Shown: piece after piece, positions 728 to 51,200 of the stretch
Layout: every line of letters begins with the position of its first letter
How positions within the stretch are numbered: position 1 is the stretch's first letter
Assembly: GCA_037783545.1 (NCBI GenBank)
Contig: JBBELK010000298.1
Location: 1,612,001-1,676,000 of the forward strand
Direction of reading: 5' to 3'
DNA length: 64,000 nucleotides
Origin: Henricia sp. BOLD:AAB3569
Taxonomy: Eukaryota > Echinodermata > Asteroidea > Spinulosida > Echinasteridae
Translations under genes and position numbers: made by a program
The notes under the pieces: generated by a model
What the model was told of the DNA's origin: nothing
What the model saw: the letters and a program-made list of their open reading frames with translations, nothing else
The model's database searches: none

Positions 728-3092
728 GTGACTGACCCTGAAACTAAACCAGAAAAATTAATATGGTTTCATCGGGATTCGAACCCGAGACCTCTTGACA
801 CACTGGGCAGATGCTCTACCAGCTGAGCTACGAGGCACAGTGGTATACCCCCTTAGGTTTCCCCCAAGACCTCTGACACACCGGGCAGATGCTCCACCAG
901 CTAAGCTATGAGGCACAGTGGTATACTCCATCAGGTTTTCCCTCCCAAGACCTCTGACATACCGAGCAAATTGTGAATGCATTTGTGAAATTTGTTTTTT
1001 ATTTTAACTCTTAAAGATTCTAGCAAAAGGCGAACTTCAAGTCTCTGAGAAAGAACGTCAACAGCAGCACGAGTCCATGTTCCGTGATATTGCTACGATT
1101 GTCGCTGAGAAATGCGTTAATCCCGAGACCAAGCGGCCATATACTGTAGGAATGATTGAACGTGCAATGAAGGATGTGCATATATCGGTCAAGCCAACGA
1201 GAGGAACTAAACAGCAGGTGATGCTAAAACTAATTATCATGGAATTAAGCAAGAAGAAAAAAACAATTATTCAGAATGTTTTTAATTGTCATGAAAAGTC
1301 TCTTAAGATTATAAAGGGAAAAGTGGTGTAGAATCCATACTTTTCCTGACTTTGTGTCCGTGAGCAAGTTACTTTGTCGACGTGATCAGACTCACTCGTG
1401 CAACTGACAGCAACTAGTTGCAAGTACAAGTATTCGACCGCAGCTGGATACAATTAATTGCCAGAAAGTAGAACATGAGCAACTCGCGACAAGTGGAATT
1501 TTTCCAGTTGCCAGTAGTTGCAAGTGCGCGTACATTGACTTTTTTATTAAAGCAACTGATCAATTGCTCCCAGTTGCCGAAGACATTGGGTGCCACTAGT
1601 TGCTTCCAGTTGCAAGGTCGATGTGCACAAGGCTTAAGGCTTTCTGAAATTGGCTGCTGGACTAATTTCATTGTAATAATCAATGTAAAAGGTGTGGCCC
1701 CACATTCCAACCCTAAGGCTGCGTTCGAGCGTGCAGTTCTCGTTACTCGGGAGTAATGCGTGCGCATTGCACTCGGGTCACATCACGCGAACGGCAAGTC
1801 GGCATTCCGCATGCGCGAATGGCAATCAGTGAAGATGGCTGTCTCTTGCCATCACTGCCCAAAAAAAACGCTGTTTTACTGCTCAAAAGAAACTGAGGAA
1901 ATACAGGCCGTAAGTCGTGAGAACCTTTGATGCCGTCCAAAACAAACCTTAGTGAGTTGTTGTTTCAGTTATCGAGTTGACACGTTGAGCAAATTCACCA
2001 AAAATCCAACCTATATCCCGCCATCTTCGCACAAATCACATGGCATTCGTTGGGAGTAAGAGCACACCCCATTTGTTTGGGAGTACCGAGAGCATACTCT
2101 CACTGACCCGAGTGTCGTTATTCTTGCCGTTCGCGCGCGCGCAGGAGTATAACTCGTGTTAACACGAGTACACGCCCGAACGCAGCCTAATAGTCTTTCT
2201 GTATTGACCTTTGACCTGCAGGCTCTTGATGTCATTAAGAAGTTTAAGGAAACCGAGACGATGCCCATCGACCGAGCTCAGATGAGGTTAAGAATCTTGC
2301 TCCCAGTGAAGGAAGGAAAAAGGATTAAAACCAAACTCAAGGCGTTAATCAAGACGTTAGAAAGAGAGGAATTTGGTGACAATCTGGAACTGGTGAGATG
2401 TGGAGGGAATTCTATTGATTCAAATGAGCTTGAATTGTGGTGTGATCTGAAAAAAACATTTAAAATGGGTTACATTTCTTTTTTGAGTTTCACAGCTTCA
2501 AATGTGAAACTAAAATGCTGAAGATGTGGTTAATTAGATTTGTTTAGTGCAAGCTCCATTTCAGTAGTTACAATCTAATCAAACTTGGGGTATAACGCGA
2601 ATCTGCTTTATGAAGAAATGTGTCCACATCACATTTTTTAACCCCCATTATTCCCATGGGTATTGAGATTTTGACATACTTTTCTCAGTACCATTCAGAG
2701 ATTTCGCATTCTCAATCCATATATTTTCAAGCATAACATCAAGAAACCACCAATGTTTTGTAATCTAATTTATCTGGTTCCATAAAGCAGTGTAATAATT
2801 ACACCGACCTTTTTGCTTCCACGTCCAAATTGGAGATTGTTTCTTCCCATGGATAGTATTTGTGGGATGTATTTTATATGATTAGGTTAGAACGAAGTTC
2901 ATTTTTTGGAAAAATCTGGACAAGCTCCTTTATTATTGACCACTTCACCGTTTTCCCACACAGGTGTGTCTTGTTGATCCAGGGTGCTACCGCGAAATGG
3001 AAGAAATAGTACGAACAAGCACCAAAGGGCAGGGAACGGTAGAGGTCTTGGATCTTAAAGACGTGGAGGAAGGAGATGAAATGTTAGAATAA
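598..3092 (+). CDS. SBDS: SBDS ribosome maturation factor, exons 2-5 (5' partial)
   Basis: SBDS works with the EFL1 GTPase to evict the anti-association factor eIF6 from new 60S ribosomal subunits. Four exons (598-727, 1017-1217, 2222-2392, 2964-3092) join in phase to about 210 codons ending in TAA. Read against my memory of human SBDS they match from the end of the N-terminal FYSH domain ([11 protein letters not shown]) through the three-helix middle domain ([19 protein letters not shown]) to the C-terminal ferredoxin-like domain (LVDPGCYRE; end [10 protein letters not shown]). Exon 1, about 43 residues with the start codon, is not seen in 1-597 and should lie to the left. All introns are GT-AG. 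Introns carry SINE heads (intron 2) and a PIF/Harbinger-type MITE (intron 3). SBDS is convergent with the corepressor sequences on the - strand. A second exon 5 lies at 32817-32945. Confidence 0.95.
766..965 (-). repeat. Two tandem tRNA-like SINE heads (family A)
   Basis: On the - strand the first copy reads GCCTCGTAGCTCAGCTGG, then AGAGCATCTGCCC, then GGTTCGAATCCCG. These are pol III A- and B-box sequences, with a good D arm and T arm. The acceptor ends do not pair and the anticodon arm is broken, so it is not a working tRNA. A second, shorter copy follows in tandem to about 965. The same head recurs near 5110, 6560, 35140, 41560 and 52890. Confidence 0.75.
1017..1217 (+). CDS. SBDS: SBDS exon 3
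   Basis: Acceptor CTTAAAG ends at 1016; donor GTGATG at 1218. Exactly 67 codons, phase 0 at both ends, starting [14 protein letters not shown] and ending RGTKQQ. It encodes most of the middle helical domain, with the highly conserved segment [19 protein letters not shown]. Confidence 0.95.
1380..1660. repeat. AGTTGC/GCAACT-rich palindromic repeat in SBDS intron 3
   Basis: The hexamer AGTTGC or its complement GCAACT recurs about ten times, in both orientations, giving long open frames on both strands (1414-1767 and 1475-1756) that are artefacts of the repeat. It is probably a MITE or a degenerate palindrome. Confidence 0.5.
1717..2187. mobile_element. PIF/Harbinger-type MITE, 471 bp, TSD TAA
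   Basis: Ends are GGCTGCGTTCG and CGAACGCAGCC, flanked by TAA on both sides (1714-1716 and 2188-2190). A 3-bp TWA-like duplication is the PIF/Harbinger signature. The interior matches, in inverted orientation, the element at 44650-45062 inside the corepressor gene. It sits in SBDS intron 3. Confidence 0.8.
2222..2392 (+). CDS. SBDS: SBDS exon 4
   Basis: A pyrimidine-rich acceptor ends CAG at 2221; the donor is GTGAGA at 2393. 57 codons, phase 0, from [10 protein letters not shown] to FGDNLEL. It spans the end of the middle domain and the start of the C-terminal domain ([15 protein letters not shown]). This exon is absent from the second copy of the locus: similarity there starts only downstream, at about 2487. 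Confidence 0.95.
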
Positions 3093-5157: not shown

Positions 5158-5480
5158 TAAGAGCAAGAACAGCGCATTGGTTGCACTTACCTCTGTTGCT
5201 TAACCTTGCTTTATGTTGTTGCACTACATGCACCATGGCTGTTGTATCGATAAAGATAAAAATGTATTTCTTCAGGCTAAAAAAAAGTAGAACCACTTTC
5301 GTTTTTTTACAAGCCGAGTGCATGCTCAATAATTTGAACGTATCGCAACGCGCGCATGTGGCATCTTCGAATGAAAGTACGCTGGTGAGTATATTTTACA
5401 CGTGTCCATGTGCGTCTAGTGGTGCGCGCAACTGTTGACCACTAAACATTCCCGGATGTTCTATGCACGGAAAGCAATCA
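5157..5480. mobile_element. 5'-truncated MITE (GATTGCTTTCC family) at a deletion junction
   Basis: Matches the full element at 8460-8888 from the internal AGAGCAAGAA segment to the end ATTCCCGGATGTTC..GGAAAGCAATCAAT. It has lost the other terminus. In the right copy the same flanks are separated by 5.2 kb holding the last two exons of the corepressor, so this truncated element marks the junction of a deletion. Confidence 0.75.
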
Positions 5481-5930
5481 ATAGTTAATATTTAAATTTG
5501 GCTGGAGACTTGAATGCATAGCCTCATCATTCACATTGGGAAATTATTCACGTCCAGGACTTACATGTAATGCCGAATTGGAGGGTTCATGTATAAGTAT
5601 GCAAAATTTTACTTTATGAGTCGACTGGAAAAAAGTGTTAACACTGGTAACAAACACCACATGATTGTTTTTCTGTCTAAGATGGTACATGTACTGAGAA
5701 ATTAACAACTAAAGGTGTTTTTGAACAAATTGTGTACGCACAAATTTTTTACATTGACAAAAATCATGTATGGATTTTAAATGTTTTCTGAAGCATTGTT
5801 GCATCTACGTAGCTGAAATTTCTGAGGGCTAGTTTACCAATACTCTTCTTTCCTGGACTCCGTAAAAAGTTTTATCTTGAAAATGATACATTGGGCCTTT
5901 AAAAGACAACTGATAAATCGTCCAACCCAC

Positions 5931-6438
5931 CTGAAGTGCTTTCTGGTCGCCCCTTGGGTATCTCATCCCTCAAATCAGGATTCGGCATTCCCATTGAAAT
6001 ACTAGGAGGGGGTCGGATAGGTGTACCCCTCATATTAACCATGGGATGCACCCCGAGATGCCCTGAGTTCAACAAATGGTGACCCGTAGTGATGGTATGC
6101 ACTCCTGTAACAGGGCTTGAACCTCTGGGCGGGTGCTTGAAGCGTACGCCGGACGACGTGGGCCATCTGTGCAAATTCACGGCTTGTTGTTGGGTGTAGT
6201 GTTCAGCGGGCGATGTGACTTCTCGCTGTTGTTGCTGCTGCTGCGATTGCGGTGACGCGGTTCGTCTGTCCGTGTGTCCCGGGTGTTGCGTTGAGGGGTG
6301 TGCCTGGGTGGTGTGGGGACTGATGGAGGGGTGGGGACTGATGGAGGGGTGGGGAGGGTGTGGGGAGGGGATTCCTCCGGGGTTGTGCTGGGGGTGCTGG
6401 CCCTGGGGAAGAAACGGCATGTTCACAATCTGTCCACC
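5931..6438 (-). pseudogene. Copy of corepressor exon 17 (orphan exon, frame open)
   Basis: 508 bp against 637 bp for the partner at 40806-41442. The 129-bp difference is exactly 43 codons and the frame stays open throughout. Both splice sites survive: acceptor TTTGACAG and donor CTTCAG|GTGGGT. The encoded Pro/Ser/His/Gln-rich text ([21 protein letters not shown]) matches the partner. The exons that should follow it are missing here and only an exon 16 copy lies upstream, so it is an orphan piece of a duplicated locus, not a complete gene. It could instead be an allelic fragment. Confidence 0.8.
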
Positions 6439-6524
6439 CTGTCAAATTGAAATGGAAAAAAAATCTTGATTAAATACACACAAGAAAACGATGTTAATCT
6501 AAACGACCAAACATGGAATGTTTG

Positions 6525-6640
6525 AACCTAAAACTTCTGACACACTGGTATACTCCCTCAGGCTTTCCCCAAGACCTCCGGCACACTGGGCAGATGCTCT
6601 ACCAGCTGTGCTATAAGGCACAGTGGTGCACTAGACTGGT
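6525..6640 (-). repeat. tRNA-like SINE head (family A), degraded
   Basis: Same family as 766-965; on the - strand CATAGC-like box A is altered (AGCACAGCTGG). It is shared with the right copy at 41525-41640, so it predates the duplication. Confidence 0.6.
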
Positions 6641-6840
6641 TGCGCACACAACCAGTATGACGCGAGTCATAGAGTGCGTGTGTGTGTGTGTTCACGACCA
6701 ACTGAGAAGGAAGAGACGAATTTAGAATAAGTCGCGAACGATCATTTTGAAACTCCTTGTTAAGACCGGCAAAACAAACATGGATTTTCATGTTTTTGTG
6801 GCGGAACTGAAATGTCTTCAGATATGTTTTTTTATATATA

Positions 6841-7406
6841 TACTGAAACGCAAAAGAAACTTACCACTTGTTTAAAATGTAATGAAATTGTAACAGTTCA
6901 AAATAAAACAAACCAACAATTGCTAATTGAAACATTGGCATTTTATTGATGACATGTCAAGTTTTTGATACACCATCTCATCAGTTTGTTCTACAGTAAA
7001 GAACAGAAGAGGGTGCAATGTCAGTCCCCTTTTAATAGCGTGTGTGGCCACCATTGATTTGGATACAGGCAGTGCATCGTCGGCGCATACTGCCTACTAG
7101 TCTTTGGATGGATTGCTGCTGGATTCTGTCCAATTTTGCACTGGCCTTTTCAAAGCCAACATCAAGACATCACGTGCAGCTCATTACAATCATCCCATAC
7201 CCCTTGGCTAATCACCGACAGTAAAAACGGCTGTTCAACAGCTGTGCCATGAAGTGACCATTGAAGGTTCAAGTGACCTTCAGACACCGTTTGGTCCGAC
7301 AGGGAGGACACTATTGTCCACAAATAAGGTCACACATTATTACACGCAATGTTATTGTTGCTATTTAAAGGTTTAAAAGGTGGTAAGTTTATTTTGCGTT
7401 TCAGTA
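6841..7406 (-). mobile_element. Tc1/mariner-derived element, 566 bp, TA target site
   Basis: Ends TACTGAAACGCAAAA and TTTTGCGTTTCAGTA with TA on both sides. On the - strand near 7030-7130 it keeps a Tc1-type transposase C-terminus (QRLVGSMRRRCTACIQ then INGGHTRY, stop). The rest of the transposase is gone. A 679-bp relative lies at 33165-33843. The right copy of this locus has the empty site near 41840. Confidence 0.85.
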
Positions 7407-7554
7407 TATAAAGGTTTTTTTATGTACTTTTGATTTATAATGGTTTTGTTCCTTTAACCCTGATACTCCTCAATCATCCAAAATCAATATGATTTTACAT
7501 ACACCCTAGGGAGTTAGGGTTAAAGAACTACTCTGAAATTGGCGGCATTCCTAC

Positions 7555-7994
7555 CTGTGGGTGAGCTGCATAGGAGAGCAGCTGGTGGTCAATCATGTGT
7601 TGCTGACCAGGGGGAAAGGGTTTGGGCATGGGTGATTCCCACCGTGGGGACAGCCGAGAGTCATTAGCCGAGGTGGATTGAGGGTACTGCAAGGTACGCT
7701 GTCCCATCTGTTGCTGGGGAGTTAATTGGTGTTGAAGTTGCGGCTGTAGCTGTGGCCGCTGCCACTGCTGTAGCTGCTGCCGCAGCGGCTGCTGCCGCAG
7801 CGGCTGCTGCCGCTGCCGCTGCCGCTGCCGCTGCCGCTGCCGCTGCCGCTGCTGCTGCTGTTGCGGAGTTAATTGGTGTTGAAGTAGCTGCTGTAGCTGT
7901 GGCCACTGCCACTGCTGTAGCTGCTGCCGCAGCAGCTGCTGCTGCCGCTGCTGCTGTTGCTGTTGCTGTTGCTGTTTGGCAGTTGCATAATCAC
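7555..7994 (-). pseudogene. Copy of corepressor exon 16 with expanded Gln/Arg repeat (orphan exon, frame open)
   Basis: 440 bp against 296 bp for the partner at 41985-42280, a difference of 144 bp or 48 codons. Splice sites are kept (acceptor CATTGTAG, donor CCACAG|GTAGG). From DYATAKQ the frame is open to the end (LLSYAAHPQ). The pure CAG run of the partner has here become a Q/R/L/P-rich repeat, with the block around CTACAGCAGTGGCAG..CAACACCAATTAACTCC duplicated internally. The poly-Ala and other long frames here are out-of-frame readings of this repeat. Confidence 0.8.
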
Positions 7995-8104
7995 CTACAA
8001 TGACCGCAAATTACAACAAATATAAGCCAAGTTCAGACAAAAAGTGGTCCAGGTTCGTTTCAACTGAAAATTTGGAAATATGTGGAGAGCGAAATCTCAA
8101 AGGT

Positions 8105-8205
8105 CAAAATCAAGGCAGCCGGGCTGTATACTTCCAAGGGAGTGATTTAATGGAGCCCTGTGATCAGGGGTAATAATGTATGCACCTTGATCTGAGATTC
8201 CCTAT
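8105..8205 (+). repeat. SINE tail fragment
   Basis: A short piece of the SINE body (GGAGCCCTGTGATCAGG, ACCTTGATCTGAGATTC), shared with 42415-42500, so it was present before the duplication. Confidence 0.6.
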
Positions 8206-8346
8206 ATAACCCGATTGTTTCTGTATTAAGATACATGGTTCCATTTCTTCCCAACAATCCACAATCTTACTTTCTGTTGCGATATAAGTCCATAAAGTCC
8301 ATTTTTGTTATTAGTAAATTTACAAGAATGTCATGGATCCACAATT

Positions 8347-8888
8347 GATTGCTTTCCGTGACGTAGAACATCCGGGAATGTTCGGTGGTCAACAATCACT
8401 TTTCGACATGCGTGCACACATCGAATGTAGCCTTTCCGCGTCAAACACTTGGTGGCGCCTGTATTGATTGCTTTCCGGCGACGTCACGCCTTCCATCCAC
8501 CATTTTGGTTGGCATTTTTCATGACGCATGTGGCTCGACTGAAAAAGGGGGAAAAAAGAGCAAGAAAAGCGAATTGGTTGCACTTACCTCCGTTGCTTAA
8601 CCTTGCTTTATGTTGTTGCGCCATGGCTGTTGTATCGATAAAGATAAAAACGTATTTCTTTAGGCTAAAAGTCCTGATCAAGTAGAAGCTCTTTCGGGTT
8701 TACAAGCCGACTGCATGCTCAATATTTTAAACGTATCGCAACGCGCGTGTGTGGCATCTTTGAATCAAAGTACGCTGGTGAGTATTTTTTACGCGTGTTC
8801 ATGTGCGTCTACTAGCGCGCGCGTGTACGCGCGTGATTGTTGACCACCGAACATTCCCGGATGTTCTACGTCACGGAAAGCAATCAAT
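8347..8888. mobile_element. Nested MITE, GATTGCTTTCC family
   Basis: An inner element at about 8460-8888 has ends TATTGATTGCTTTCC and GGAAAGCAATCAAT. An outer stretch from 8347 repeats the terminal region ATTGATTGCTTTCCGTG..ATTCCCGG-like sequence in inverted form. A full inverted relative lies at 21247-21656, a truncated one at 5157-5480 and a solo end at 48085-48131. It sits at the right edge of duplicated segment 3. Confidence 0.75.
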
Positions 8889-9026
8889 TGTGAAATGCTC
8901 GAATTGGCCAAGCAGGCTGTACGTGCAAGAAGAATGACCTTGTGTTATTTCAGATGCTGTGACATACAAATACAACATGGTGTGATGGGAAATAGTATAC
9001 AAATATTGACTGCAATGAGGGGCATG

Positions 9027-9134
9027 CCTAAGATTATAGGCCCTCAGTGATCTCGAAGCCATGACTATGCCCCAAGGTGGAAGCCGAGGGGCATAGTCAT
9101 GGCTTCGAGATCACCGAGGGCCTATAATCTTAAC
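9027..9134. repeat. Near-perfect palindrome, about 45-bp arms
   Basis: The arm AAGATTATAGGCCCTC..ATGACTATGCCCC at 9027-9073 is repeated inverted at 9090-9134 with a loop of about 16 bp. This is a small MITE or hairpin-forming element. Confidence 0.75.
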
Positions 9135-9476
9135 CATGACCCGAATAAACAGCAGTCAATATTTGTTTTATATACCGAATGTGTAGATTTTTGGTAGATC
9201 TGGTTGGTTAAAAGTAACGATACACAGTCACAGTCAAGACAGTGGTCCTTCGATTTCGGAAGCTGGTCAACGGAGGAAAAGTTGTATATTTACAGCAAAA
9301 AAATTGTAGCATAATCACCTGGTTTAATTTATGTATATGTGCTTAAATCACAATGCACTATATAAAAATTAACATGTTGTATAGTGTTATCGGCTTCAGC
9401 GAAACATTGTATTCATGGTTAGAATTGGACGGATGCCTGTAAAACCAAAGGAAATCTAAGATTGTTTCAAACTCAC

Positions 9477-10325
9477 CCGAGTCTGTGCGTCTTTCAATAT
9501 GCTGCAGCCTCTCCAGGACCTCTTGGACGTTCGGTCTTTTCTTATGATCTTGATTCCAACATTCCCCTAGGAGATTTTGCACTCCAGGGGAGCAGTCCTC
9601 CGGAATGTCCGGATGTATTCCATCCAAAACAGCCTTTTGAATTTCTATCCTAGTGCGACCATCATGGGGTTGTTTTCCGGTGTGCAGCTCCCAGAGAACC
9701 GTGGCGAAAGAATAGATATCTGATTTTAGAGAGACTTTCGGTTTTTCCCAATCCCCCTTTCTGGATTCTTTACCCATGGCTTCGGGTGACATCCAAGGGA
9801 AGGATCCTCTTATCGATATTGTGGTGACAGTTCCAATATACTCTCTTGTGGTACCAAAATCACATATCTTCATTGAATCATCGCCAAATATGAGGAAATT
9901 TGGTGACTTTACATCTCCATGACAACAGTTTTGTCCATGAAGGTAGCATAGTGCGTGAGCCCCATCCAGGCTCCACTTCACAAAGTACTTATCTTTATAT
10001 TCTGACCAATCACGTTTGTGTGATCTGATGAAGTCATACAACGAGCCTTTGGACGCATACTCGGTAACGATGAAATGCTGGGACGGGTTTTCTTTGATGA
10101 CAACTCCAAGGATCTTTGTTACATTGTCATGGTTTAGTTTAGACATAATTATAGCTTCGTTTTCCTTGAATTTATAACACACTTTAACAGCAACGTCTGT
10201 CACTTGGCCAGTGGTTGATCTCAATTTGGCTTTGTGCACAATGTTCGCACTATGAAGAACATCTATTTTTTGGTAATCAAAGAGATCGTCGGGATTAATC
10301 ACGTTGTAAGCGGGTGCTTTCAAGC
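9477..10325 (-). CDS. Protein kinase domain exon, MAP3K/TKL-like
   Basis: One exon of 849 bp encodes an almost complete kinase domain of about 280 residues. Visible landmarks are the VAVK lysine, the alpha-C glutamate (ENEAIIM), the catalytic loop HGDVKSPN (HRD changed to HGD), ICDFG, the activation-segment end SPEAM, SDIYSFATVLWEL and KKRPN. The loop and the GSFPWMSPEAM text resemble MLK/ZAK-type MAP3Ks. The acceptor ATCGGAACAG ends at 10326 and the donor GTGAGT lies at 9471-9476, so this is an internal exon (2 nt in, 1 nt out). An ATG at 10377 upstream of the acceptor gives a false hydrophobic N-terminus. I found no partner exons; it lies inside the disrupted left copy and could be a stranded exon. 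Confidence 0.75.
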
Positions 10326-10679
10326 CTGTTCCGATAAAAAACAAAAGAACCAAATGAACCAAATAAACTTGATACAAATGTGGACAATGTCTATGAGTTG
10401 TATCAATGATTGATGTTTCATTTTACGTCCGTGTACATAGGTCCAAGAGACGGAGACCAAACTTAATGCAATTTAGGCCAAACTTTTCACGTTTTGCAGC
10501 ACATACGGAGATCGTGACAGCCCAATTTCTGGCCAATAACTAGAGTAATGTGTACAAGCACAAAACTTTTTAAAAAGCTGGTAAACCTCATTTGAAACAA
10601 AGTCCACAACTTAAGAAAAATCATTCTTGTGCATTTTTGTTTTGGCTTTGAAATGGGTCGAAGAGTGGTAATTAGCTAC

Positions 10680-11015
10680 TTTTGGTAATGCACTGTAAAA
10701 ATTAAGTAGTCATTTTGCACCAAAAATTAGTCAAATTGGAAATAAAAATTAGTCTTTGAACACGCGACTAATTTTGCAATCTAAATAACTAACTGGACAG
10801 TTTTTGACTTGAGAAAATACTAATCTCAGTTTATGCAAAGACTAATGCAGATGTTTGTAAGACTAATTTTTTTGAAAGACTAATGAGATCGCATCCAAAT
10901 TACTAATCATGTTAGTCACCTGAGTTCCGGAAGACGAATTAAATTCCAAATGACTAATTGTATGACTAATTAATTCGTGAAATACTAATTCCTTACAAAA
11001 TTAGTCAGGATTTTG
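10680..11015. repeat. ACTAATT/AATTAGT-rich short-interval repeat
   Basis: The motif ACTAAT or its complement ATTAGT occurs about twenty times in some 330 bp, in both orientations. The outer parts (AAAATTAGTC-type) face each other. Probably a MITE built from subterminal repeats. No coding. Confidence 0.55.
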
Positions 11016-11726
11016 AAGCTTCTAAGGTTTGACCTTCTTCCCTCTGAACACTTACAACAATGTACGTTAAATATGTCTTTCTTTAAGAAAATGAGCACGG
11101 CTCATATATAGGCCAATAATGTAGCGACAACCAGAAGACCAAAAACTGTTCATTTTGTGACAGAAAACAGTCGTCGATGTTCCTGTGACAGGGCTCGTGC
11201 GGTTTGTATTGGGCGTCATACGACATGTGACATTTATGCAAATCGCCAAAAATCTTCACAGAAAATGGCGTCTCGACCATGACAACGTGAGTTGTGAGAG
11301 TTGTTTTCTCCAACTGTTAAAATTCACACCGTCTCAAGCAGTGATCGTAAGTACCAGAAGAAGGCACTAGAATGATCTCTGGGAAGTCTAGAATGCAGGA
11401 AGTGCATTTTCGGCCAGGTTGAAAGTCTGTTTGGTTGTTTTTTGGGGCAGTTTCTGGAACGCATCGTTCGGCAAAAGGCGTGGTAAATTTAAACATGTTA
11501 AAGTTCTGCATACGCGTATATGTATTGCCTGAGTCGTTAGGCCCAAAAACGAAAAAAAAAATTTAAAAAAAAAGGGCCAACGACTCAGTTACTGGGTCTA
11601 ATATATCGTCAGTACTCCTAAATCCACGCGGTCCTACATGTCCTATTTCTACGCACTCGCATTAGGTTTGCCGGCCAATGCGCGCGCGTACATCAGCGTT
11701 AGGTGCGCAGATTATGGAGGATCGAG
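11016..11726. other. Intergenic, no gene recognised
   Basis: Several open frames of 60-76 codons overlap on both strands, without recognisable protein features or consistent splice sites. Confidence 0.4.
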
Positions 11727-11938
11727 GATATATAGATGCTTATCAATGGCGGAGTCAATCAAATCTCTGATGTTATTGCCCTCTTTCCCAAGGAACTGGA
11801 CATGCTGGACCAGGGTCGTGTAAGGTTTGCCCATAGAGCAAGGAACAGACCCGAGCTTGTTGTAGCACTGCCAGGCGATTCCATCCGGGACTGTCTTGGT
11901 TCCTGTTGAGGTGGATGTTGAGTGGAGGAGGATGAGGA
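11727..11938 (-). pseudogene. Decayed copy of corepressor exon 10 (3' part)
   Basis: About 210 bp similar to 48192-48395 (ATGCTTATCAATGG, GAGTCAATCAAATCTCTGATG, CCAGGCGATTCCATCC). Relative to the intact exon it has a 9-bp deletion and a 9-bp insertion, plus a net 23-bp insertion that breaks the frame. It is the leftmost-derived, furthest-upstream piece of the duplicated locus. Confidence 0.75.
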
Positions 11939-11999
11939 AACAAGTTGATAATGTGCGCCCTCTGTTGTCGAAATTTTGCCAGGCTCTGCCGACGTGTCT

Positions 12000-12135
12000 A
12001 TGACGTCACGCCTCTAGTTGCGCGGCGCGTAGATTGGTTCCCGATCCCTATAGATTGGTTCGCTTATTGCGAAACTATTCTCCTGTATGGAATATGTGGA
12101 CGGGAACCAGTCTACGCGGCGCGCGTAATTTTTTT
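12000..12135. repeat. Imperfect inverted repeat (GCGCGGCGCGTAGA arms)
   Basis: GCGCGGCGCGTAGATTGGTTCCCG at 12019 faces CGGGAACCAGTCTACGCGGCGCGCG near 12101, with ATTGGTTC between. A likely MITE end pair. Confidence 0.5.
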
Positions 12136-12247
12136 TTACACCACTGCGAGGGGAGAACAATGGGGTTTGTACCTTTTTAGCGCCTTGAGAGGAGACTATA
12201 TAATAGGTTAGGGTTTAGGGTTGGTTATTTTAAAGGAATTTAGGGTT

Positions 12248-12320
12248 TGCAACCAGCTTCGTGGTCTGGTTAGAAGAGAGCTCGACTTGTAATCATAAGG
12301 TCCCTGGTTCGAATCGATGC
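12248..12320 (+). repeat. tRNA-like SINE head
   Basis: GCTTCGTGGTCTGGTTAGA resembles a tRNA 5' half with an A box, and GGTTCGAATCG is a B box. Stems are imperfect, so I call it a SINE remnant rather than a tRNA gene. Confidence 0.5.
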
Positions 12321-12631
12321 ATGTTTGGGATTTTCCGAAATTTCTCGGTTTCTTCTTTTTCTCTAATAGTGAGAGTATAAGAGTTGTCACTATTTCCAAG
12401 ATTGTCACTCGAGAAGTGTATGTCATTGAAAACTTAGACTCTATTCGGGTTGACAAATTGGGGTGTACCCCTCGCTGCGGTGTAAAAAAAAAACACGCGC
12501 TCGGCGCGGCGCGTTAAAACCGTTAATGCATACGTTTAAAAAAGTCGTAATCTGATTGGTCTGCTTACCGAAATATTCAGAAATACAAAGCAATGAATAT
12601 TAATATTTTTCCTGCCATTATGATGTCATGC

Positions 12632-17340: not shown

Positions 17341-17500
17341 AAAAGACGTAATTTCAAAGACGTCGTTTCCTGACGCCTCATACATTACTCATACATTACT
17401 TAACATTACATGACTCATACACTACTCATACATTACACATACATTACACTACTCATACATTACATACACTACTCATACATTAGCTTTATGTGCGACTTCT
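17340..17500. repeat. CATACATTACT simple-repeat stretch
   Basis: Irregular repeats of CTCATACATTAC and CATACACTACT interrupting the 182-bp array. From here to 17765 the sequence is otherwise unrelated to the array. Confidence 0.6.
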
Positions 17501-33843: not shown

Positions 33844-33977
33844 TATTAAGACCACTCATTGGAGATGGGGGGGAGGGGGGGTGAAGGTTCTTGGAGGCAA
33901 CTTTAAATTTGTAAGCCTATGACCTGCACATGTGCTTCATTTTAATGTACAAGGATCTGAAAGCTCATGAGTACAAC

Positions 33978-35183: not shown

Positions 35184-35336
35184 AGGTTTTTCCCCCCCCC
35201 CAGGACCTCTGGTTTACCAGCTGAGGCACAGTAGTATAATCCCTAAAGTTTTCCCTACGAACCCAAGATTGGTCGTTTCAATAGTGATTAGGCACCATAC
35301 CAAATAATGCGTGCATGAATCTCTAAAAAGAACCTG

Positions 35337-36020: not shown

Positions 36021-36500
36021 TGAAGAATAATTCAGAATCTGTTGATTCAGAAGGCATGTCAAATAAATTACACCCCAACAATATTATAATTTTAAGCAGG
36101 GGCCGTATGGGTTGTGTAGTTCTAGAGTTAGGTCAATTTGAACCAAGCCCCGTCGGTTGTACTGAGTCGATCAAAAAGCTTAGAAATACTGCATTCAATA
36201 CTTTGGTTAATTTCAACCAATCGGGGACAAACTATGACTTATGCTACAGCTACAGCCAATAAAAAGGGCGCTCTCAAATGTGAAACATGGAACGAAAGAA
36301 CTGTGAAAGTACCTTGCTGGAGTCATTGTTTCAACCATTTTCATAAGCTTTTTGCCCAATAAATGTAAGCTTATTGGACGAGTTTTCGAAATAAAGAAAA
36401 ATTGTATTTTTAACATTGTAGTAGGTGACATTTTTACTTTCGTTTTGATGAATATGCATGCTGCAGGTTTACCCCAATTTAAGTGATGGTCAAAATTTTC

Positions 36501-36506
36501 TTTATT
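36501..36506 (-). promoter_or_regulatory. Candidate polyadenylation signal AATAAA for the corepressor gene
   Basis: TTTATT on the + strand is AATAAA on the - strand, 240 bp past the stop codon. It is the nearest perfect hexamer seen. It predicts a short 3' UTR. Confidence 0.4.
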
Positions 36507-36745
36507 TCCTCGAAAGTCCTTGGCATACAGATTGCTTTCGGAACCTTTCTGACTTTAGATGTAAATTGTATCAGTATTTTCAGTACATTTGCCATCTTAA
36601 ATTGCTCATATTAATCAGCTGTGACACACTAAAATCTGTCAAAAAGAATTTTGTATAAAAAACTTAAAATGAAATGATTAGTTTCACTCAATGCAGTTTC
36701 TCATACAACTACAAACTTAAACCACACTACTATACATGATTTATG

Positions 36746-39342: not shown

Positions 39343-42201
39343 CTGAAACAAAAACAACACAAATTTCAAGATGTGCGAGCGAGCCATCGGACAGCATTCT
39401 TTTAACCAGTTTATGCCAAAAAATACCAATGTTTTCAAAAAGGCAAATGTGATTGGCCAAAAGTTAAGACCAGGTCAAGTACCACCAATACTGACTTTTG
39501 AGAGTCATTTCTACATTCATTTTATGAATCTTCTCACCAAAAGATCATACTTCGCAACACTCCGAGGCGGACACCACGAAGCAAGATTTGCTACACTGAC
39601 AGGATATCCACACACAGCCGTCAAGTTCAAGATAAAAACACGGTGTGTACAAATGAATAGTGGACAATGAACGTGTTTACACGTCAACCATGGAAGACAG
39701 CGGTAAAGCTGATGTTTTAACTCATTAAACCCCCTGTGACTATACATTGCCAGAATGTGTTTACACGTCCTCCGGCAACAAGTGGTTAAAGGCACATTGT
39801 ATCATTTGCAGATAAAAATTTTGCAATTTCCTGGGGGGAAAAAACTTGTTCATAAATGTCTGACCTTTCTCTTGAGAAGAGCCAAGATTTTCCGTAGCCA
39901 CATGGACTAGGGTCCTAAAAGCATCAGAGCCACTGGATGCACCAGGTGACTTGCTGCATGCAGAGCCTGTCAAATCAAGACACAAGACCAGGGGCCAATT
40001 TCATGAAGCTGTTTAGCAGAAATTTTTGCTTAATCAAAAATTCGTTTGCTTTATAAAAATGGGTCAATAGTCAAAATTGCATGTCAATTTGTGTTTTTCA
40101 CATAAAATAAAATGTTGACTATTTGACCCATTTTTTAGTGATAACAAATTTTTGATTAAGCAAATTTTTTTGCTAAACAGCTTTATGAAATTGGCCCCAA
40201 GACATTCACATGGGTTTATCCATGGTATGGGGGTACAATTCTGTTTGCTGCTCATATTAAAACCAGCTAGTCACCTGAATGCAACCCACTCTGCAAGTAC
40301 TGCCAAGAATTACTGTTTTATTGAATAGCACAGCAGCATATCAAGAGAAGAAGCTGTACCACTATTTCGTTTATAGTTAATATTTAAATTTGGCCGGAGA
40401 CTTGAATGCATAGCCTCATTATTCACATTGGGATATTATTCACGTCCCGGACTTTAAGCCGAATTGGAGGGTTTATGCAAAAGAATGCAAAATTTTACTT
40501 TACGAGTTGACTGGAAAAAAGTGTTGAAAGCACTGGCAACAAACAGCATGATTTTTTTTGTCTAAGATGGTATTGAGAAATTAACAACTAAAGGTGTTTT
40601 TAAAAAAGAAAATTGTGTGTGCACACACATTTTTAACCTTTCACTAGGATTTTAAATGTTTTCTGAAGCATTGTTGCATCTACGTAGCTGTAATTTCTGC
40701 AGGCTAGTTCACCAATACTCTTCTTTCCTGAACTCCGTAAAAAGTTTTATCTTGAAAACGATACATTGGGCCTTTAAAAGACAACTGATAAATCGCCCAA
40801 CCCACCTGAAGTGCTTTCTGGTCGCCCCTTGGGTATCTCATCCCTCAAATCAGGATTCGGTGTTCCCATGGTGATACTAGGAGGGGGTCGGATAGGCGTA
40901 CCCCTCATGATACTCCCAACCATGGGACCTTGGATAGCAGCCATGTGATGCACCCCGAGATGCCCTGAGCTCAACAAATGTGCAGGATACGTCAGGTGAC
41001 CCGTAGTGATGGTATGCGCTCCTGTAACAGGGTGCGTTGAGCCCGGATGGGCAGATGGGTGCACTCCTGCCCCCGGATGGACGCCTGGGCTTGAACCTCT
41101 GGGCGGTTGCTTGAAGCGTACGCCGGGCGGCGTGGGCCATCTGTGCGACAAATTCACGGCTTGTTGTTGGGTGTAGTGTTCAGCGGGCGATGTGACTTCT
41201 CGCTGTTGTTGCTGCTGCTGCTGCGATTGCGGTGGTTGTTGGGGTGACGCGGTTCGTCTGTCCGTGTGTCCCGGGTGTTGCATTGAGGGGTGTGCCTGGG
41301 TGGTGTGGGGACTGATGGAGGGGTGGGGACTGATGGAGGGGTGGGGAGGGTGTGGGGAGGGGATTCCCCCGGGGTAGTGCTGGGGTACGAGGTGGGGGTG
41401 CTGGCCCTGGGGAAGAAAGGGCATGTACACAATCTGTCCACCCTGTCAAATTGAAATGGAAAAAAAATCTTGATTAAATACACACAAGAAAAGGATGTTA
41501 ATCTAAACAACCAAACATGGAATGTTTGAACCTAAAACCTCTGACACACTGGTATACTCCCTCAGGTTTTCCCCAAGACCTCCGGCACACTGGGCAGATG
41601 CTCTACCAGCTGTGCTATGAAGCACAGTGGTGCACTAGACTGGTTGCGCACACAACCTGTATGATGCGAGTTATAGAGTGCGTGCGTGTGTGTTCACGAC
41701 TAACTGAGAACGAAAAAACGAATTTAGAATAAGTCGCGAACGATCATTTTGAAACCCCTTGTTAAGATCGGCAAAACACACATGGATTTTCATGTTTTTG
41801 TGGCGGAGCTAAAATGTCTTCAGATATTTTTTTTTTTGTATAGGTTTTTTTTATGTACTTTTGATTTATAATGGTTTGTTCCTTTAACCCTAACACTCCT
41901 CAATCCTCCAAAATCAATATGATTTTACATACACCCTACGGAGTTAGGGTTGAAAAACTATTTTGAAATTGGCAGCATTCCTACCTGTGGGTGAGCTGCA
42001 TAGGAGAGCAGCTGTGGGTCAATCATGTTTTGCTGACCAGGGGGAAAGTTCTTGGGCATGGGTGATTCCCGCCGTGGGGACAGCCGAGAGTCATTAGCCG
42101 AGGTGGATTGAGGGTACTGCAAGGTACGCTGTCCCATCTGTTGACTCATCTGTTGGGCTATGAGTTGCTGTGGGGTTAATTGGTGTTGAAGTTGTTGAAG
42201 T

Positions 42202-42246
<45 letters not shown>

Positions 42247-45200
42247 TGGTGACCCATCTGTTTGGCAGTTGCATAATCACCTACAATGACCGCAAATTAC
42301 AACAAATATAAGCTAAGTTCAGACAAAAAAGGGGTCCAGGTTCGTTTCAACTGAAAATGCTCTATCAACAGATATATGTAGAGCGAAATCTCAAAAGGTC
42401 AAAATCAAGGCAGCCGGGGCTGTATACTCCCAAGGGAGTGATTTAATGGAGCCCTGTGATCAGGGGTAATAATGTAGGCACCTTGACCTGAGATTCCCCA
42501 TATTCTTGGGTTTCACTTTTTGTGGTGTACTGTGGCAGAGCGGTCTAGTGGATCGTATTCAAAACCTGGGCTAGTTCCAAAGGTAGTGGGTTCGAATCTG
42601 GTCCGGTCCATCCATGGTGCGTGTACCCTTTGGCAAGGTACTTTGCCGCACATTGCTTCTCTCCACCCAGGAGCAAAATGGGTACCTGAGAGGGTAGCGA
42701 AAGTCGATGTGTTTGATTAGCCGTTGAGCGCCTAAGGCAGCCGGGGCTATATACTCCCCGGGGAGCTGAGATGGTATATGGAGTTATTTAATGGAGCCAT
42801 TTAATGGAGCCCTATGATCAGGGTGATGATAATGTAGGCGCCTTGATCGGGATTTCCCCGGATAAGTGCGCGGTATAAATCCATATCATTATCATTATTC
42901 TTGACAACCGGTTGCTATCCGCCATTACTGTGTCCATACTATGGCACGGCAAAGCAAAAATAATTCAACACTGAAAATTTTGCAATCAACCCTGAAAAAC
43001 AAGACTCAACATTTTTTTAAAAATTTGCCAACAAAAGCACGGTATGCCAGTTTCAAACAGTCTATCAACATTTAAAAGTCGTGCCAACTTTGTTTTTCTT
43101 GCGCAACATTTGCGAAAATATGCGTCTACGTTAAATTATCAGTGTTGAATTATTTTTGCTTTGGCGTGCCATAGTATGGACACAGTAATGGCGGATAGCA
43201 ACCGGTTGTCAAGAAAGTGAAACCCAAGAATAACCTGACTGTTAATGTATTAGGATACATGGTTCTATTTCTTCCCAACAATCCACAATCTTACTTTCTG
43301 TTAAGTATAAAGCGATATAAGTCCATATTATTATTGTTATTAGTATCAACAAAAATGTTAATGATCCCCTATTCACAAGTGGTTTTTCTGAATACATACC
43401 AGCAATGGTGGATGTTCGCATGCTCATCTGCTTGGCTGTGGCGAAATCACCTGAGGATGACACGGATAAAGGGTTAAAAGTTAAAAAAAATCAAGTACCA
43501 GGATTCATAGAAAGCCCATTATCCTATATAAGTTTTTTTTTATTATACAGTTCAAAAAAGAATTATACAACGGACCGAAAAATCCAGCTGGAGAGATGCA
43601 ACGATCTATAACGTGTGTGACCACCTCTTGTGGCAAGGCTGAATGCACCAACCTCTAAAGAGCTGCTGAGGCAGGGTGTGCCACTGTGCCTGAAATGCTT
43701 GCCCGAGCTCCTGCACTTCTAGGGCTGTTTGGGAGATGTGTGGCTCCAGAGGTATCAGCTCATTCCATGCAGGTTTAATCAAGTTGATAACCCAACGAAA
43801 TGAGTTTTGTGAGAGCCCTTAATTACAGGATTCTCCCAGACACAACAAATATTACATTTCATTGCTGCGAGAACAGGGGCCAATTTCATAAAGCTGTTTA
43901 GCAGAAAAATGTGCTTAATAAAAAATTTGTCAATTTTATGTCAACTTGTGTTCTTAGCAAGAATAGCAGATATTCTTGTGAAAAACACAAGTTGACATGC
44001 AATTTTGACTATTGACTCATTTTTATAAAGCAAACAAATTTTTGATTAAGCAAATTTTTCTGCTGAACAGCTTTATGAAATTGGCCCCAGGTCTACTTGG
44101 ACCTGATTGAAATCACTGAAGCAGAACAGTCTTGAAAGTGATTGGTCAATCAGTGCCTTGTTATCCACAAGGTCACTGCATTCAACAAACTTCTGTTCTG
44201 ATCAAGAATCGATTTTTAAAAAAAAATTGCTCTTCTTTTTTGGGCGAGTATACTGTTGTCTTATGCTTTGGCAATGGCTGTTTGTCAGCACTACAAGTCT
44301 TTCCTTAAAAGTTTACAACTGTATACTTCTCCTGTAACTGTGTCTGTCTAAAATCTTTGGTGCCGAACCGAATGTTGACCTTTTCTCGTGAAAGTTTCAA
44401 GAGAGGGCTGGATGGTTCCATATTCCTGGGCTTTCTGCGAGGGTTTCCTTTGAGCTGTGCAACGACATCATGTACTCACGGTGTTGATGCGCGAGGTATA
44501 GTGCTGTGTTACGATCTACGTACTGAACACGCTCTAGCAGAACAGACCGTGAAAACATCCCCTTGGATTTAGAGAGTTAATGGTTCCATATTCCTGGGCT
44601 TACCTGCGAGGGTTTCCTGTGAGCTGTACAACGACATAATGTACTCTTGGGCTGCGTTCGTGTCAGTCGGGTCAGTGAGAGTATGCTCTCGGTACTCCCC
44701 GACAAATGGGGAGTGTGCTCTTACTCCTGACGAATGCCATGTGATTTGTACGATGATGGCGGGATATAGGTTGGATTTTTGGTGAATTTGCTCAACGTGT
44801 CAACTGGATAACTGAAACAACAACCCACTAAGGTTTGTTTTACACGGTATCAAAGGTTCTCACGACTTACGGTCTGTATTTTCTTCAATTTCTTGTGAGC
44901 AGTGGAACAGCGTTTTTTGTGTAGTCATGGCAAGAGATTGCCATCTTGACTGATGGCCATTCGCGCATGCGGACTGTGCACTTGCCGTTTGCGTAATGTG
45001 ACCCGTGTGCAATGCGCACGCATTACTCCGGAGTAGCGAGAACTGCACGCCCGAACGCAGCTTTGGTGTTGATGCGCGAGGTATAGTGCTGTGTTATGAT
45101 CTACGTACTGAACACGCTCTAGCAGAACAGACCGTGAAAACATCCCCTTAGATTTAGAGAGTTAATGGTTCCATATTCCTGGGCTTACCTGCGAGGGTTT

Positions 45201-48200
45201 CTTTTGAGCTGTGCAACGACGTCGTGTCGGGTTGATTGGCTCGCGCCATCATCATATACTCACGGTGTTGATGCGCAAGGTATAGTGCTGTGTTAGGATC
45301 CATGTACTGAACACGCTCTAACGGGATGGACAATGAAAAAGTCAAGCGATATTGGTCAACAGTGTACATATCTATCAGAACACATTATCAATTGCCTATT
45401 TTAGGAATTTATGTTTGCACTGATTTTAGACAAAGCACTAAAATGGATCACTAGGTCACAAAAGCCATTAATATACCTCATAAATATTTATCAGGCAACC
45501 ATGCTATTTCATTGGTCCATTCCAACTCAGCCGTGTGATAGTTTTTATTATATACCTCATGCGTAGATTCCCGTCATCTGACAGAAACACTTGGTGGCGC
45601 TCTTATTGTGAAACGCCCGAATTAGGATAATTCTGTGTAAGGAGTGAAATGGCAACAGTCAGATGTCTCCATTCCTTCTATCCCGCTGTTGCAAAAAGGA
45701 GGGAAAAAACGACCAACTTGGCACAAGTAGACAAAACAATACGAATGTTTACACAAACTGCAGTACCTCGCCCAGAACCCGCAATGGTATCCACAAAAAC
45801 CGGCGATCCTCGAGCCAACGGGTTCTCGTAGATGCTGACGCGGTGCATGACGGGTTCGTGCCGGGATACCGACTGGCTCACACGAGGGCGTTCTCCCTCG
45901 TAGGACACTGGCGTACCCCTGGAGGCTCCCGATTCGTAAGCACTGGGCGTTGAGCGCTGGTTCTCGTGGTTCACGACTTGAAGATCAAGAACAAGTTTGC
46001 TTTGTTTCAATAAAACTGCTGTTTTACATACTTAGATACTTACATACGTATCAAGCAAATTTCACCTGCTAAACAGCTCCATCAAAATGGCCCATGGTCT
46101 ATGATTATGATTATGACATGAGCATTTTATTGGCTGCATGCCTTTTAGGGGCTGTGCCAATTATTCAAATATTCAAACATTCAAACGAAAACCAAATATT
46201 CAAATAATGATTTTCTTATTCAAATATTTGAAAAGGTTGATCAGTAATAAGGTGATTACTAAATTGGCAGAGAAAGGACATTTTTTTTCTACTAGAGTGG
46301 TATTTTGTCTAAGTGGCTCTAACAAAGGAGCTCCAAATGCATGCAGTGGACTTAATTTTGGCATTTCTAGATTGATCATACTGCATTAAAATTTACTCTA
46401 CGGTATACATGTACATGTAGGCCAATTCGGGAATTTACACCTAATAAATCGAGACTTAATCAGGCTAAACCAAAATTTGATATTTGATCGAACACTTAAA
46501 TATTCAAATAGGGAACTATTCAAATTGACCCAGCCCTATACCTTTCAATCCTGGTTGGTCATGTGACGTGGGTGGCATGGGAGTACCCCTCATAATTGAG
46601 CCAACGGGTACATCACGTCCCCCTCTGCTGATGGGTGTTCCCTGGGTTATCGAGCCCCCTCCACCTCCTCCTTCCTGGCGAGGTGAAGTAACTGTAGGTT
46701 GGCCTTTGACAAGCAAGCCGTCGTAGCCAGTTGGGGTTCTCTCATAGCGACTAAGGAAAGGATATGGCATTTGTACACAAATCAATGGGGATGGGCTTGA
46801 GGCCAAGATTCCCCAGGGTGGACTTGACCGGTAAGTGATCTCAACATTAAAGGTGATTACAAGGGCACAGAGTAGGGTAATCAGGATTGCATGAAGTTTG
46901 AGCGAAATGGCTTTTACTAAGTAAAAAAGTAAAACGTGTCTTTTGGAAGCTCCCCTTTGCAGCTCCGAGGGTTAGGAAAGTTGAAAATCTCTTTGAGTAA
47001 TTTGAGTTGGATAACATTTTTCAATGGTAGAAGATCTTCAACAAGTTATTGGTTAATTTTCTGATTACAAAATGACAAATTTGATAATGGCATAGTCAAA
47101 AAGAACTAATGCAATACTTGACATTAATTTGTAATTCGGCAAGATAGCTACCTTGACGGTGGATTGCCAGCACTTGAGAAGTTGATCGGAGTTCCTTGAG
47201 TAATAGATCCACTGTGAGGCTGACCCAGCGGCGACGGCTTCTCGCTCTTGACTGGTTTAGGAGACGACTTGTTAATAAGCGGAGGAGGTGGCACCGTGAC
47301 CTTGGTGGACCGGGGTAAGGGTATTGGACGATGCTGCTGGGATTGGGATACCCTGTCCATGGGAACCAGGGCGAAAGGGGAACCGGAGGGGGGCGGTCGA
47401 GCGGCCGAAGGTATGCCCGGCGGGGAGGATACGTGGGGGTGCTGGTCGCGATCCGAATAAACGTCCCCGTGAGCATCTCGTGGATAGCGCGATCCTGGAT
47501 GGTACGCCCGTCCGATAGCGCCACTTGGATACCTAATAGGCGGCATATCGGGATGGCTACTGCCGACTTCGTAAACGTCACGTTCTAACATTTTCTGTTT
47601 TTGCAGTTGTTGGTTTCGCGGAAGCACTTGTGAGGTGTGAGAGATGTGGGGGGAGACGTAAGCCATGGCTGGTTCACGAGTTACAGGGGGACGACGATCT
47701 TTACTATCGCTGGAATCCACCCACTGAGCTGTGCGGCTGGAGTACAGGTCCCTGTACATGGGCTCGGAGGAGCGCCGGCCGTCTTGGGGGTCCCTGGTGT
47801 CCTTTGCAGAGGCTGGGCTTCTTCTAGCATCGGAATGGAATTGGGTGTTTGATGGTTGGTCTTGTTGGCTGGGTGAGCTAGTACTTGAAGCCTTGCCTGG
47901 AGAGGAAAAGTACAGACTTAGAATCAAAGAAGAAAAGAAAGATTCATTTGGACGATAAAAAGGAAGATTCATTTCTCTATTTTTTTATGGAAGTCAAACC
48001 TGTGTATAGTGGCCACCTAAGACACCGACAAAATGGCCACTCTATAAAGGTTTGGCAAGCAAAGTACATCCTAAAAGATATTGCAACACCAAACATTCCC
48101 GGATGTTCTACGTCACGGAAAGCAATCAATATTAGTTTTTACGTTCTGGGGAAAACATTTTCTTCAATATATCAACAACAACAAAATATTTACCTAGATG

Positions 48201-51200
48201 CTTATCAATGGCCGAGTCAATCAAATCTCTGATGTTATTGACTCCTTTGCCCTCTTTCCCAAGGAACTCGACCAGGGTCGTGTTGGGTTTGCCCGAGCTT
48301 GTAGCACTGCCAGGCGATTCCATCCGGGACTGTCTTGGTTCCTGTTGAGGTGGATGTTGCGCGGAGGAGGATGAGGAAAGATCTCCGGATTGCTCCCTGT
48401 TGGGCAGATTCTGCAGACCGTGGAAGTATCGTTTTTCATCACTGGAGGTCACTTTATCAGCAACTGGTTGGGTTTTATTGTCCAGCGTGCGTCGCGCCAT
48501 TGGTATCACAGAGGAGTTAGGTTCCTGGATTACGATGGCTTCTACGTCGTCGTGCGGGTGCCCCTCGTCGGCACTGCATGTCGCGCTCGAATCGTCGTCT
48601 TCGCGAGGACGAGACGAGGTTGATGGGTCTGCGGGAGGCAGTTCTGGACGCGGCATTGGTATGGCCGAGTTTGGAGTTGACCGGTCGGGATGAGAGGGAG
48701 ATCGCGGCGGTTCTTGTTGATCTGAGATCATTTTCGCAGCATCTGTGTCTTTTTGGACGTGCGATTGCTCAGTTTTTGCTCCGTCGTTACTAACTCCCTC
48801 TAGTTTTTCGCTTGCCCTACCACCACCCGTGTCGTTTCCCGACTGGTTTTTGTCGTGTCCGGTATCTGGTAAACTTTGGTTCTCCGCGTTCACGCCGTCG
48901 CTGCTGGTCGCCGGAGTGCACGACACAGCACTTCCGACGGCAGCATCTTTGGGCTCCACTCCGCTAACGCTTGCCGACTCTCTCGGACTAACTTTCTTGG
49001 GTTTTCTCGACAGACTGTCGCCTTCGTTTTCGCTAGCGCTGTCCGTGTCTGAGCTTCCCATATCGTTGTCTGCATCGTTTTCGTCGTCGCTAAACATCAT
49101 GGAATCGTCGTCATCTGACATGGCGGTGATTGTAGAGGCCGTACTTTCGGCCGTGGAGGTTCTATGCTCTCGCTCAGACTGCAAGATTCAAAATGTAACA
49201 ACAATTTCAGAGCATCCTCATTTTATTGTTTTTACCGTATCCTAATAAAGAAACAGACCCAGACATTTGATTTCCGACATAACATTTGTACAGAAGTAGT
49301 TTTGATAGTACATTTTTATTGCACAATTTTGCAAAATGCATTTTACAGTCATTTTAACTAACTTTGTTTTCTTTAACTGTTTTCAAGGACTGTGCTAGAT
49401 TTTATGTTTCCATCGAGTTACTGGCAATGGCTCTGCGGCCTGAAATAGATTTTTATTTTTTATTTTATTTACCACATCCAACAGCGGAGGGACCGCCAAT
49501 TACAGGAATGGGAGCAAGTGTGGTTGAGTGCCTTGCTCAAGGGCACAGGTGCCACAACCCGTCACGGCCAGGAATCGAACCTACATTCTAGTACTAGCAC
49601 AGGAACTTAAGTTCGACGCACTAGACCGCTCGGCCATAACACCCCACAATGAGATATTTCTCATAGCGGGTGTAGTGGAGTTAAGTCAAGTCTAATGGCC
49701 AACAACAAGCCCACAGACTATAACTAAAGCATTTCAAACACAGCCAATTTTAAGTCAGTCAATCTTGGATAAATTAAAAATTATGCTCATGCAAAGAAAT
49801 CATAACAGAAAAGTATGAATGTCGAAAAGTAGGACAACGGAGTTTACTACATACATGAATGTTCAACTTAAAAACCCGGCTTAAATTTTAGCTTATTTCC
49901 TTCAGACTTAGATAAAAAAATTGATTGAATATTTTTATTCAATATTTTTATTGCAAGGGCAAAACAAGATTCAGTGAGTTATGCAGAAACTAGAACTTTA
50001 AGGTCTCTTTTAGTAAACTCCTTTTACTGCGAAGTTTCATTTTTTTTTACCAACTACACGTTTCATAATAATTACCAAAATAGCCAATTAGAGATCAGCT
50101 TACCTTGGATTTCTTGTTGTGCTCCTCCAGAATCTGCTCCAAATTAAATTTCCGCTTGTAGTTGAAGTAAAAGTTCTTACATTGGGCTTCCGTCTTGGTT
50201 CCGACCAATTTGGAGATTGACAGCCAATCACGACCGTGCTTCAACAGACCTTTGTGAAAAGAATGTCAGAGTAAAACATGAAGAAGTATAATTGTTTTTT
50301 TTCAAATTTGAGCATTGGGAAGTTAATTTTTTACTTATCTCGGACAATAATTGTTTGGGAAGCGGTTTGATTACTGATGTTTTTCTCACTTTAAATCCTC
50401 TCTTATAACGTCACATCACGTAGATCGGATTTGTTCAAATCCTTTTTGTTTTATCCCATTTAGGAATTTTCGAAATTCTAAATTTTTATAAGTACATGTA
50501 CATGCAGTGGAAAAATACAATGGCTGTATTAGACATAAATACTTCTTTGCTTAAGTCAGATTTTCGCGTAATTCGAACAAGTCAGTCAGTCCAGTTGGAT
50601 CTGACTTATCCGAGGTTCACTGTACATGTATATCACATAGCTGCCAACTCTTTTTTTTAAAATTGTTAAGATCAGTCATTTTCGCAAAATCTGATGCAAA
50701 ATCTTGGAGGGTTGACAAGTTCTGATTATTAGACCAACCTTCTTTGGCTATTTCCATCTCGTCTTCAGTCCATCGCGATGTTTCATTTATCACTGAAATA
50801 AAAAGGCAAACAAATGAGATTTAATAGCAACAATGACCCCGTTCTCACTAGAGAAATCGCTTCGTTCGGCGGTGATTCAACGAGGAAGTTTTTCTGATGT
50901 GAACGCACACATTTTGTACAAACTTTATACATCATTGAAAAGCTTGTTTAGTGACCTTTTAGGAGAGCTCACTCTTTGTAAAAAAATTACCCATGTAATT
51001 GATTTTTGTGCTGGAGTGTCGCATTTGTGACTGACACGCCTAACAATCTAATGACGAGTCAGAAAATATCACCCCAAAATTTCTGGTAACAAAACGTTTG
51101 TTTTTGCTATTCACCTGGCTCCTGCCCCTCTGGTGGTGGTGTGGTTCCTGGGGCTTCCAGTTCAGCTCCATCAGTACCAAGTTTCCTTGCAATACGGTTG

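Follow-up and report, generated by a model that had tools for sequence, protein, structure and literature searches.

Partial-gene tandem duplications, in which the breakpoints of the duplicated segment lie inside genes, are of a common kind. The locus described here, in which the end of an SBDS gene and the end of an NCoR-like gene are each present twice on one contig of Henricia sp., resembles such duplications in having one whole copy of each gene, truncated extra copies and decaying pieces. It departs from the usual partial-gene case in that both ends of the shared unit lie in oppositely oriented genes, and remnants of SBDS and NCoR flank a transposon-rich spacer. The most likely reading is nonetheless an ordinary partial-gene tandem duplication of this well-known kind, which has since decayed and been filled with transposons.

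Two described systems come close to this arrangement. The human SBDS/SBDSP1 duplicon has two copies with 97% identity, which stand in inverted orientation at a distance of about 5.8 Mb and undergo gene conversion (PMC4057820). The sea star locus shares with this published description the presence of an extra SBDS copy, but that copy is restricted to the exon 5 region, is in direct orientation, lies 30 kb away and differs from its partner at positions spread through the exon. The second system is the heterotype false duplication, an assembly artefact in which diverged collinear copies stand near each other in one sequence, as they do here. In contrast to the form described (PMC8081667), the present copies are separated by 20 kb with no gap, the extra pieces are incomplete, and no second copy of the flanks was found. 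Heterozygosity matters to this comparison, and genome-wide values from reports on other echinoderms are 1.59% for Stichopus, 2.11% for Diadema, 3.22% for a brittle star, 3.47-4.40% for Arbacia and about 3-5% for two other urchins (PMC11310861, PMC11066563, PMC11310086, PMC10213396).

Convergent genes and the shared unit

The window is the whole stretch of DNA that was analysed, 64,000 nucleotides long, at 1612001-1676000 of contig C298 in an assembly of 740.7 Mb in 2104 contigs. SBDS on the forward strand and NCoR on the reverse strand are convergent and lie tail to tail. SBDS was identified by its match to human SBDS (E 4e-92, residues 44-250). Its exons 2-5 (601-3092, forward strand) all lie within the window and are bordered by GT and AG, and exon 1 is found just outside, about 475-570 bp beyond the left edge. 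The left SBDS therefore looks intact, as the earlier note had stated. The SBDS_N profile matches this gene only (both candidates, n = 2, were checked), which makes it the only SBDS found. The opposing gene is marked as NCoR-like by a SANT-domain exon (50095-50260, reverse strand), whose best match is Nuclear receptor corepressor 2 (NCOR2; PDB 2ltp, E 3e-18) and whose next-best matches are REST corepressors (E 2e-13). An open frame of 905 codons (36749-39463, reverse strand), which has no counterpart in the left copy, is interpreted as the last coding exon of NCoR. No tRNA genes were found.

Self-BLAST recovered all four block pairs that had been proposed, in identical order and direct orientation on the one contig, together with one extra, non-collinear match discussed below. 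The first pair (2483-3253/32347-33104; E 0.0) joins the end of SBDS intron 4, exon 5 (2964-3092) and the 3′ flank on the left (2483-3284, forward strand) to an intron-4 end and an orphan exon 5 (32817-32945) with an AG acceptor on the right (32347-33163, forward strand). The second pair (3980-5159/33978-35184; E 0.0) covers the NCoR 3′ end on the reverse strand in both copies; on the left it includes a stretch that is 3′UTR-like, a status suggested by its position. The third pair begins with 5481-6840/40373-41842 (E 0.0) and is extended by 7415-7795, 7916-8207 and 8206-8346, which match up to 43373 within 41846-43373 (weakest E 2e-29). In both copies it holds two NCoR exons with introns on the reverse strand, at about 5927-6439 and 7555-8004 on the left (5481-8346) and at about 40802-41443 and 41985-42290 on the right (40373-43373). 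The fourth pair (11733-11940/48195-48379; E 3e-51) aligns an NCoR exon relic on the left (reverse strand) with part of an open NCoR exon on the right (48195-49187, reverse strand).

The shared unit starts at 2483, within SBDS intron 4 and about 90 bp past exon 4 (whose end is at about 2392), and it ends at 48379, inside the open NCoR exon. It measures 16,033 bp on the right, and its remnant on the left measures 9,458 bp. As had been claimed, the right copy contains NCoR and, of SBDS, exon 5 only, and the left NCoR is partial. The left copy has no equivalents of right 35185-40372 and 43374-48194. Two genome-wide repeats, one inside SBDS intron 4 (about 2620-2932) and one inside an NCoR intron (about 40488-40784), occupy the same place in both copies.

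Sequence outside the unit is present once, as judged from the best 40 places per search and from SBDS_N in both candidates. The terminal NCoR exon of 905 codons has no other copy among the best 40 places, save for a repeat at its upstream boundary (39410-39520). For 48400-56400 the best 40 comprise one full-length place, the other rows being short interspersed repeats. Inside the unit, 40373-41470 has two places, namely the two copies described here, and the other 38 of the best 40 rows are matches of 69-84% to its repeat part. No third or allelic copy was found elsewhere for 40373-41470, for the terminal NCoR exon or for 48400-56400 among the best 40 places, nor with SBDS_N for SBDS. Two RPB2-like genes also have no second copy; because these genes and SBDS are single, a retained haplotig is seen in none of the three loci checked.

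Divergence and constraint between the copies

The copies were realigned outside the codon-repeat tract (7691-7973/42125-42262) and the block at 11733-11940. Substitutions amount to 32/443 (7.2%) in SBDS intron 4, 15/169 (8.9%) in the SBDS 3′ flank and 84/1268 (6.6%) in the NCoR introns, compared with 39/1122 (3.5%) in the NCoR 3′UTR stretch, 18/513 (3.5%) in NCoR exon D1, 7/174 (4.0%) in the part of NCoR exon D2 outside the codon repeat and 6/129 (4.7%) in SBDS exon 5. The divergence of a few percent given in the earlier note therefore holds for the exons and the UTR stretch (3.5-4.7%) and is too low for the introns and the SBDS 3′ flank (6.6-8.9%). A first alignment had given 5.3-14.6% per block, the upper value belonging to block 11733-11940, which was measured there only; these figures differ from the realigned ones because gaps were placed differently. 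The realignment counted 66 indels, including one artefact of a block cut (4 bp at 7690, one of the 10 coding indels).

Relative to the intron rate, divergence is 0.51 in the 3′UTR stretch (p = 0.0001) and 0.52 in exon D1 (p = 0.006); the ratio of 0.59 in the D2 part is not significant (p = 0.20). The half-rate of D1 and of the 3′UTR stretch is expected if the right NCoR is constrained and the left one free. Exon D1 has dN 0.032 and dS 0.056, or dS 0.054 and dN 0.041 when the alignment is guided by the protein; the protein-guided values for exon D2 (dS 0.258, dN 0.100) include the codon repeat and were set aside.

Two patterns in the spare pieces are less readily expected of freely evolving sequence. 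Between the orphan SBDS exon 5 and the working one there are six synonymous changes, among them TAA/TGA, and no amino-acid difference, so that both encode an identical protein of 42 residues. If the left exon were constrained and the right one neutral throughout, that all six should be synonymous would have p ~0.002, in a comparison made post hoc on one exon. The amino-acid changes expected in exon 5 would be 2.5, 3.5 and 5.0 at 5, 7 and 10% divergence, and finding zero would have p 0.08, 0.03 and 0.007, respectively. The neutral substitution pattern of a pseudogene is thus absent from the right SBDS exon 5. In the left exon D1, 8/8 indels are multiples of three and always shorter on the left, as against 11/56 of the non-coding indels (p = 2e-5) or, when only indels of at least 3 bp are counted, 11/29 of the non-coding ones (p = 0.002); both the exon 5 and the D1 indel tests were chosen post hoc, and codon repeats favour indel lengths that are multiples of three.

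The exon 5 and D1 patterns suggest that some of the differences date from a time when neither copy was free of constraint. A simple reconciliation with a tandem duplication is that it occurred by unequal exchange between already diverged alleles, in which case part of the differences would be older than the event itself; maintained function of the spare exon would be a bolder alternative to such an exchange. Gene conversion was also considered for the identical exon 5 proteins, and was ruled out by the six differences being spread across the exon.

Copy-specific insertions, losses and the spacer

Each copy carries its own insertions. The extra self-BLAST match, which breaks collinearity, pairs 6835-7413 with 33159-33617 and 33778-33850. 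It is a TIR transposon that was inserted at a TA in a different place in each copy. The left insertion (6841-7413) is specific to that copy, the right copy having an empty site at about 41840-41846; the insertion on the right (33164-33850) corresponds to an empty site near 3283 on the left. The left element has at least 39 other copies that are 92-96% identical, and the right one is absent from those listed. Copies at 92-96% indicate that the time since the two SBDS-NCoR segments became separate is comparable to that implied by their own divergence. One further insertion with inverted ends, at about 42504-43229, is found on the right only.

Clear decay is confined to the left NCoR tail. This tail is without the 905-codon terminal exon, and a 5′-truncated MITE (5159-5485, strand unassigned), which matches 8556-8894, sits at the junction where the equivalent of 35185-40372 is missing. 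The second loss, that of the equivalent of 43374-48194, adjoins another copy of the same family, a MITE with perfect terminal inverted repeats of 60 bp (8340-8892) at its edge. The exon relic at 11733-11940 has lost its splice donor and is frameshifted, at 208 bp versus 185 bp on the right. The left NCoR tail therefore bears the disabling lesions of a pseudogene, with two exons, those of the third block, still in open frame and with splice-site sequence like that of the right copy.

The MITE family is represented by five pieces near the locus (5159-5485, 8340-8892, 21248-21657, 48087-48141 and one 8.6-8.2 kb left of the window), two of which sit at edges of the left NCoR losses. Between the pieces of the left NCoR tail there is also an open frame of 354 codons (9361-10422, reverse strand) with a PF07714 protein kinase domain (E 2e-46); this part found no match among the best 40 other places listed for 8900-12600.

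The spacer at the duplication junction (11941-32346) is made mostly of transposons and satellites. It is 20,406 bases long (20.4 kb), and its repeat intervals, assigned from several comparisons and with the middle of an inverted pair counted in, sum to 16,873 bases (about 16.9 kb). The repeats extend to about 42 bp from the right unit. The spacer is gap-free, and the surrounding 104 kb are without a single N. Between the unit's two ends, 20.4 kb of mostly repeats thus take the place of a directly readable junction. When the interval 11.9-32.3 kb was compared with 22.5 kb of the SBDS side and 40.6 kb of the NCoR side, using blastn (word 7) and tblastx, no relics of SBDS exons 1-4 or of 5′ NCoR exons were recognised, all matches in the spacer being short or repeats.

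Several elements can be distinguished in the spacer. An inverted transposon pair (12625-16128) is 94% identical, one member having a DDE_Tnp_4 match, and tandem-repeat arrays occupy 16639-18157 and 18672-21037, with units of 182 and 232 bp. An interspersed element of 5.3 kb recurs elsewhere at 92-98%, twice at near full length and several times in part; within it, direct repeats 135 and 204 bp long, perfectly identical and with their inner copies adjoining, lie at 25453-25587, 26748-27086 and 30537-30740. A 1.3-kb spacer element has at least 39 copies at 99-100%.

Origin of the arrangement

Altogether, it is probable that the locus is a real tandem segmental duplication with breakpoints inside genes, now partly decayed. 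From an ancestral order in which SBDS (forward strand) faced NCoR (reverse strand), a unit of about 16 kb, with one end in SBDS intron 4 and the other midway through an NCoR exon, would have been duplicated head to tail. The left side would then have held a whole SBDS and an NCoR 3′ tail without its 5′ half, and the right side a whole NCoR and an orphan SBDS exon 5. Because both breakpoints lie inside genes, the reciprocal pattern would have been present at birth. The spare ends, presumably without function, would then have been free to decay, the left tail losing the terminal exon and the equivalent of 43.4-48.2 kb and gaining a frameshift and MITEs, and about 20 kb of sequence, mostly repeats, would have accumulated at the junction. 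One tandem event with both ends in convergent genes could in this way give a seemingly reciprocal pattern without reciprocal decay. Of the two alternatives put forward in the earlier note, a real duplication is better supported than misplaced haplotypes; reciprocal decay is mostly unneeded, since the breakpoints suffice and the spacer yielded no relics. Gene annotation may also be misled at this locus into reporting a second SBDS or NCoR gene.

The other explanation raised there, that the assembler set two haplotypes of one locus in tandem, is less likely, and we hold it to be improbable. It gains from the heterozygosity of 1.6-5% in other echinoderms in the reports cited above, a genome mean that single loci may exceed; from assemblers being set to allow haplotypes up to 10% apart (PMC8081667); and from the exon-level constraint, since zero amino-acid changes in exon 5 and in-frame indels are allele-like. 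Although the intron divergence of 6.6-7.2% lies above those genome means, which come from other species, divergence alone is not decisive, and structure is the better argument against haplotypes. Homologous ends of misplaced haplotypes would be expected to abut or to meet at a gap, whereas 20.4 kb of gap-free spacer lie between them here. One haplotype would, moreover, have to be without SBDS exons 1-4 and the other without the NCoR terminal exon and a working NCoR, and no haplotig of the flanks appears among the best 40 places, in keeping with the single-copy state of the three conserved loci. Should the copies be alleles, the locus would instead illustrate how the assembly of a heterozygous animal can acquire a false duplication; on the duplication reading, both copies would be physically present in the animal.

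Slightly less probable again is that the duplication was longer and took in SBDS and NCoR in full, both of which would have worked for a time before reciprocal loss. The orphan SBDS exon 5 and the left exon D1, with their signs of constraint, speak for this reading, but such a history would place SBDS exons 1-4 and 5′ NCoR exons in the spacer, where the blastn and tblastx searches recognised none, and the amount of NCoR exon and UTR divergence fits one free lineage. Least probable of all is an alternative last exon, in which SBDS exon 4 would be spliced to the distant exon 5 copy and selection would maintain this second last exon 30 kb downstream, beyond the transposon-rich spacer: the AG acceptor, the identical protein and the synonymous changes extending to the stop codon are consistent with it, and it would let a ribosome-maturation gene use either of two equivalent 3′ ends, each with its own untranslated region, but transcription would have to run on beyond the end of SBDS for about 30 kb, most of it transposons, and its constraint signal comes from one small exon.

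Elsewhere in the assembly, mitochondrial COX1 occurs three times in contig C955 (at 7592, 23813 and 40034, in steps of 16.2 kb) and once in contig C2104 (at 6427). Of five mitochondrial codes applied to COX1, table 9 (AAA Asn, AGA Ser), the code of echinoderm and also of flatworm mitochondria, yields the motif FSTNHKDIG expected of this protein and so fits an echinoderm; other tables likewise left the frame open. The triple occurrence in C955 is probably an assembly concatemer, and it suggests that the assembly was built from long reads.
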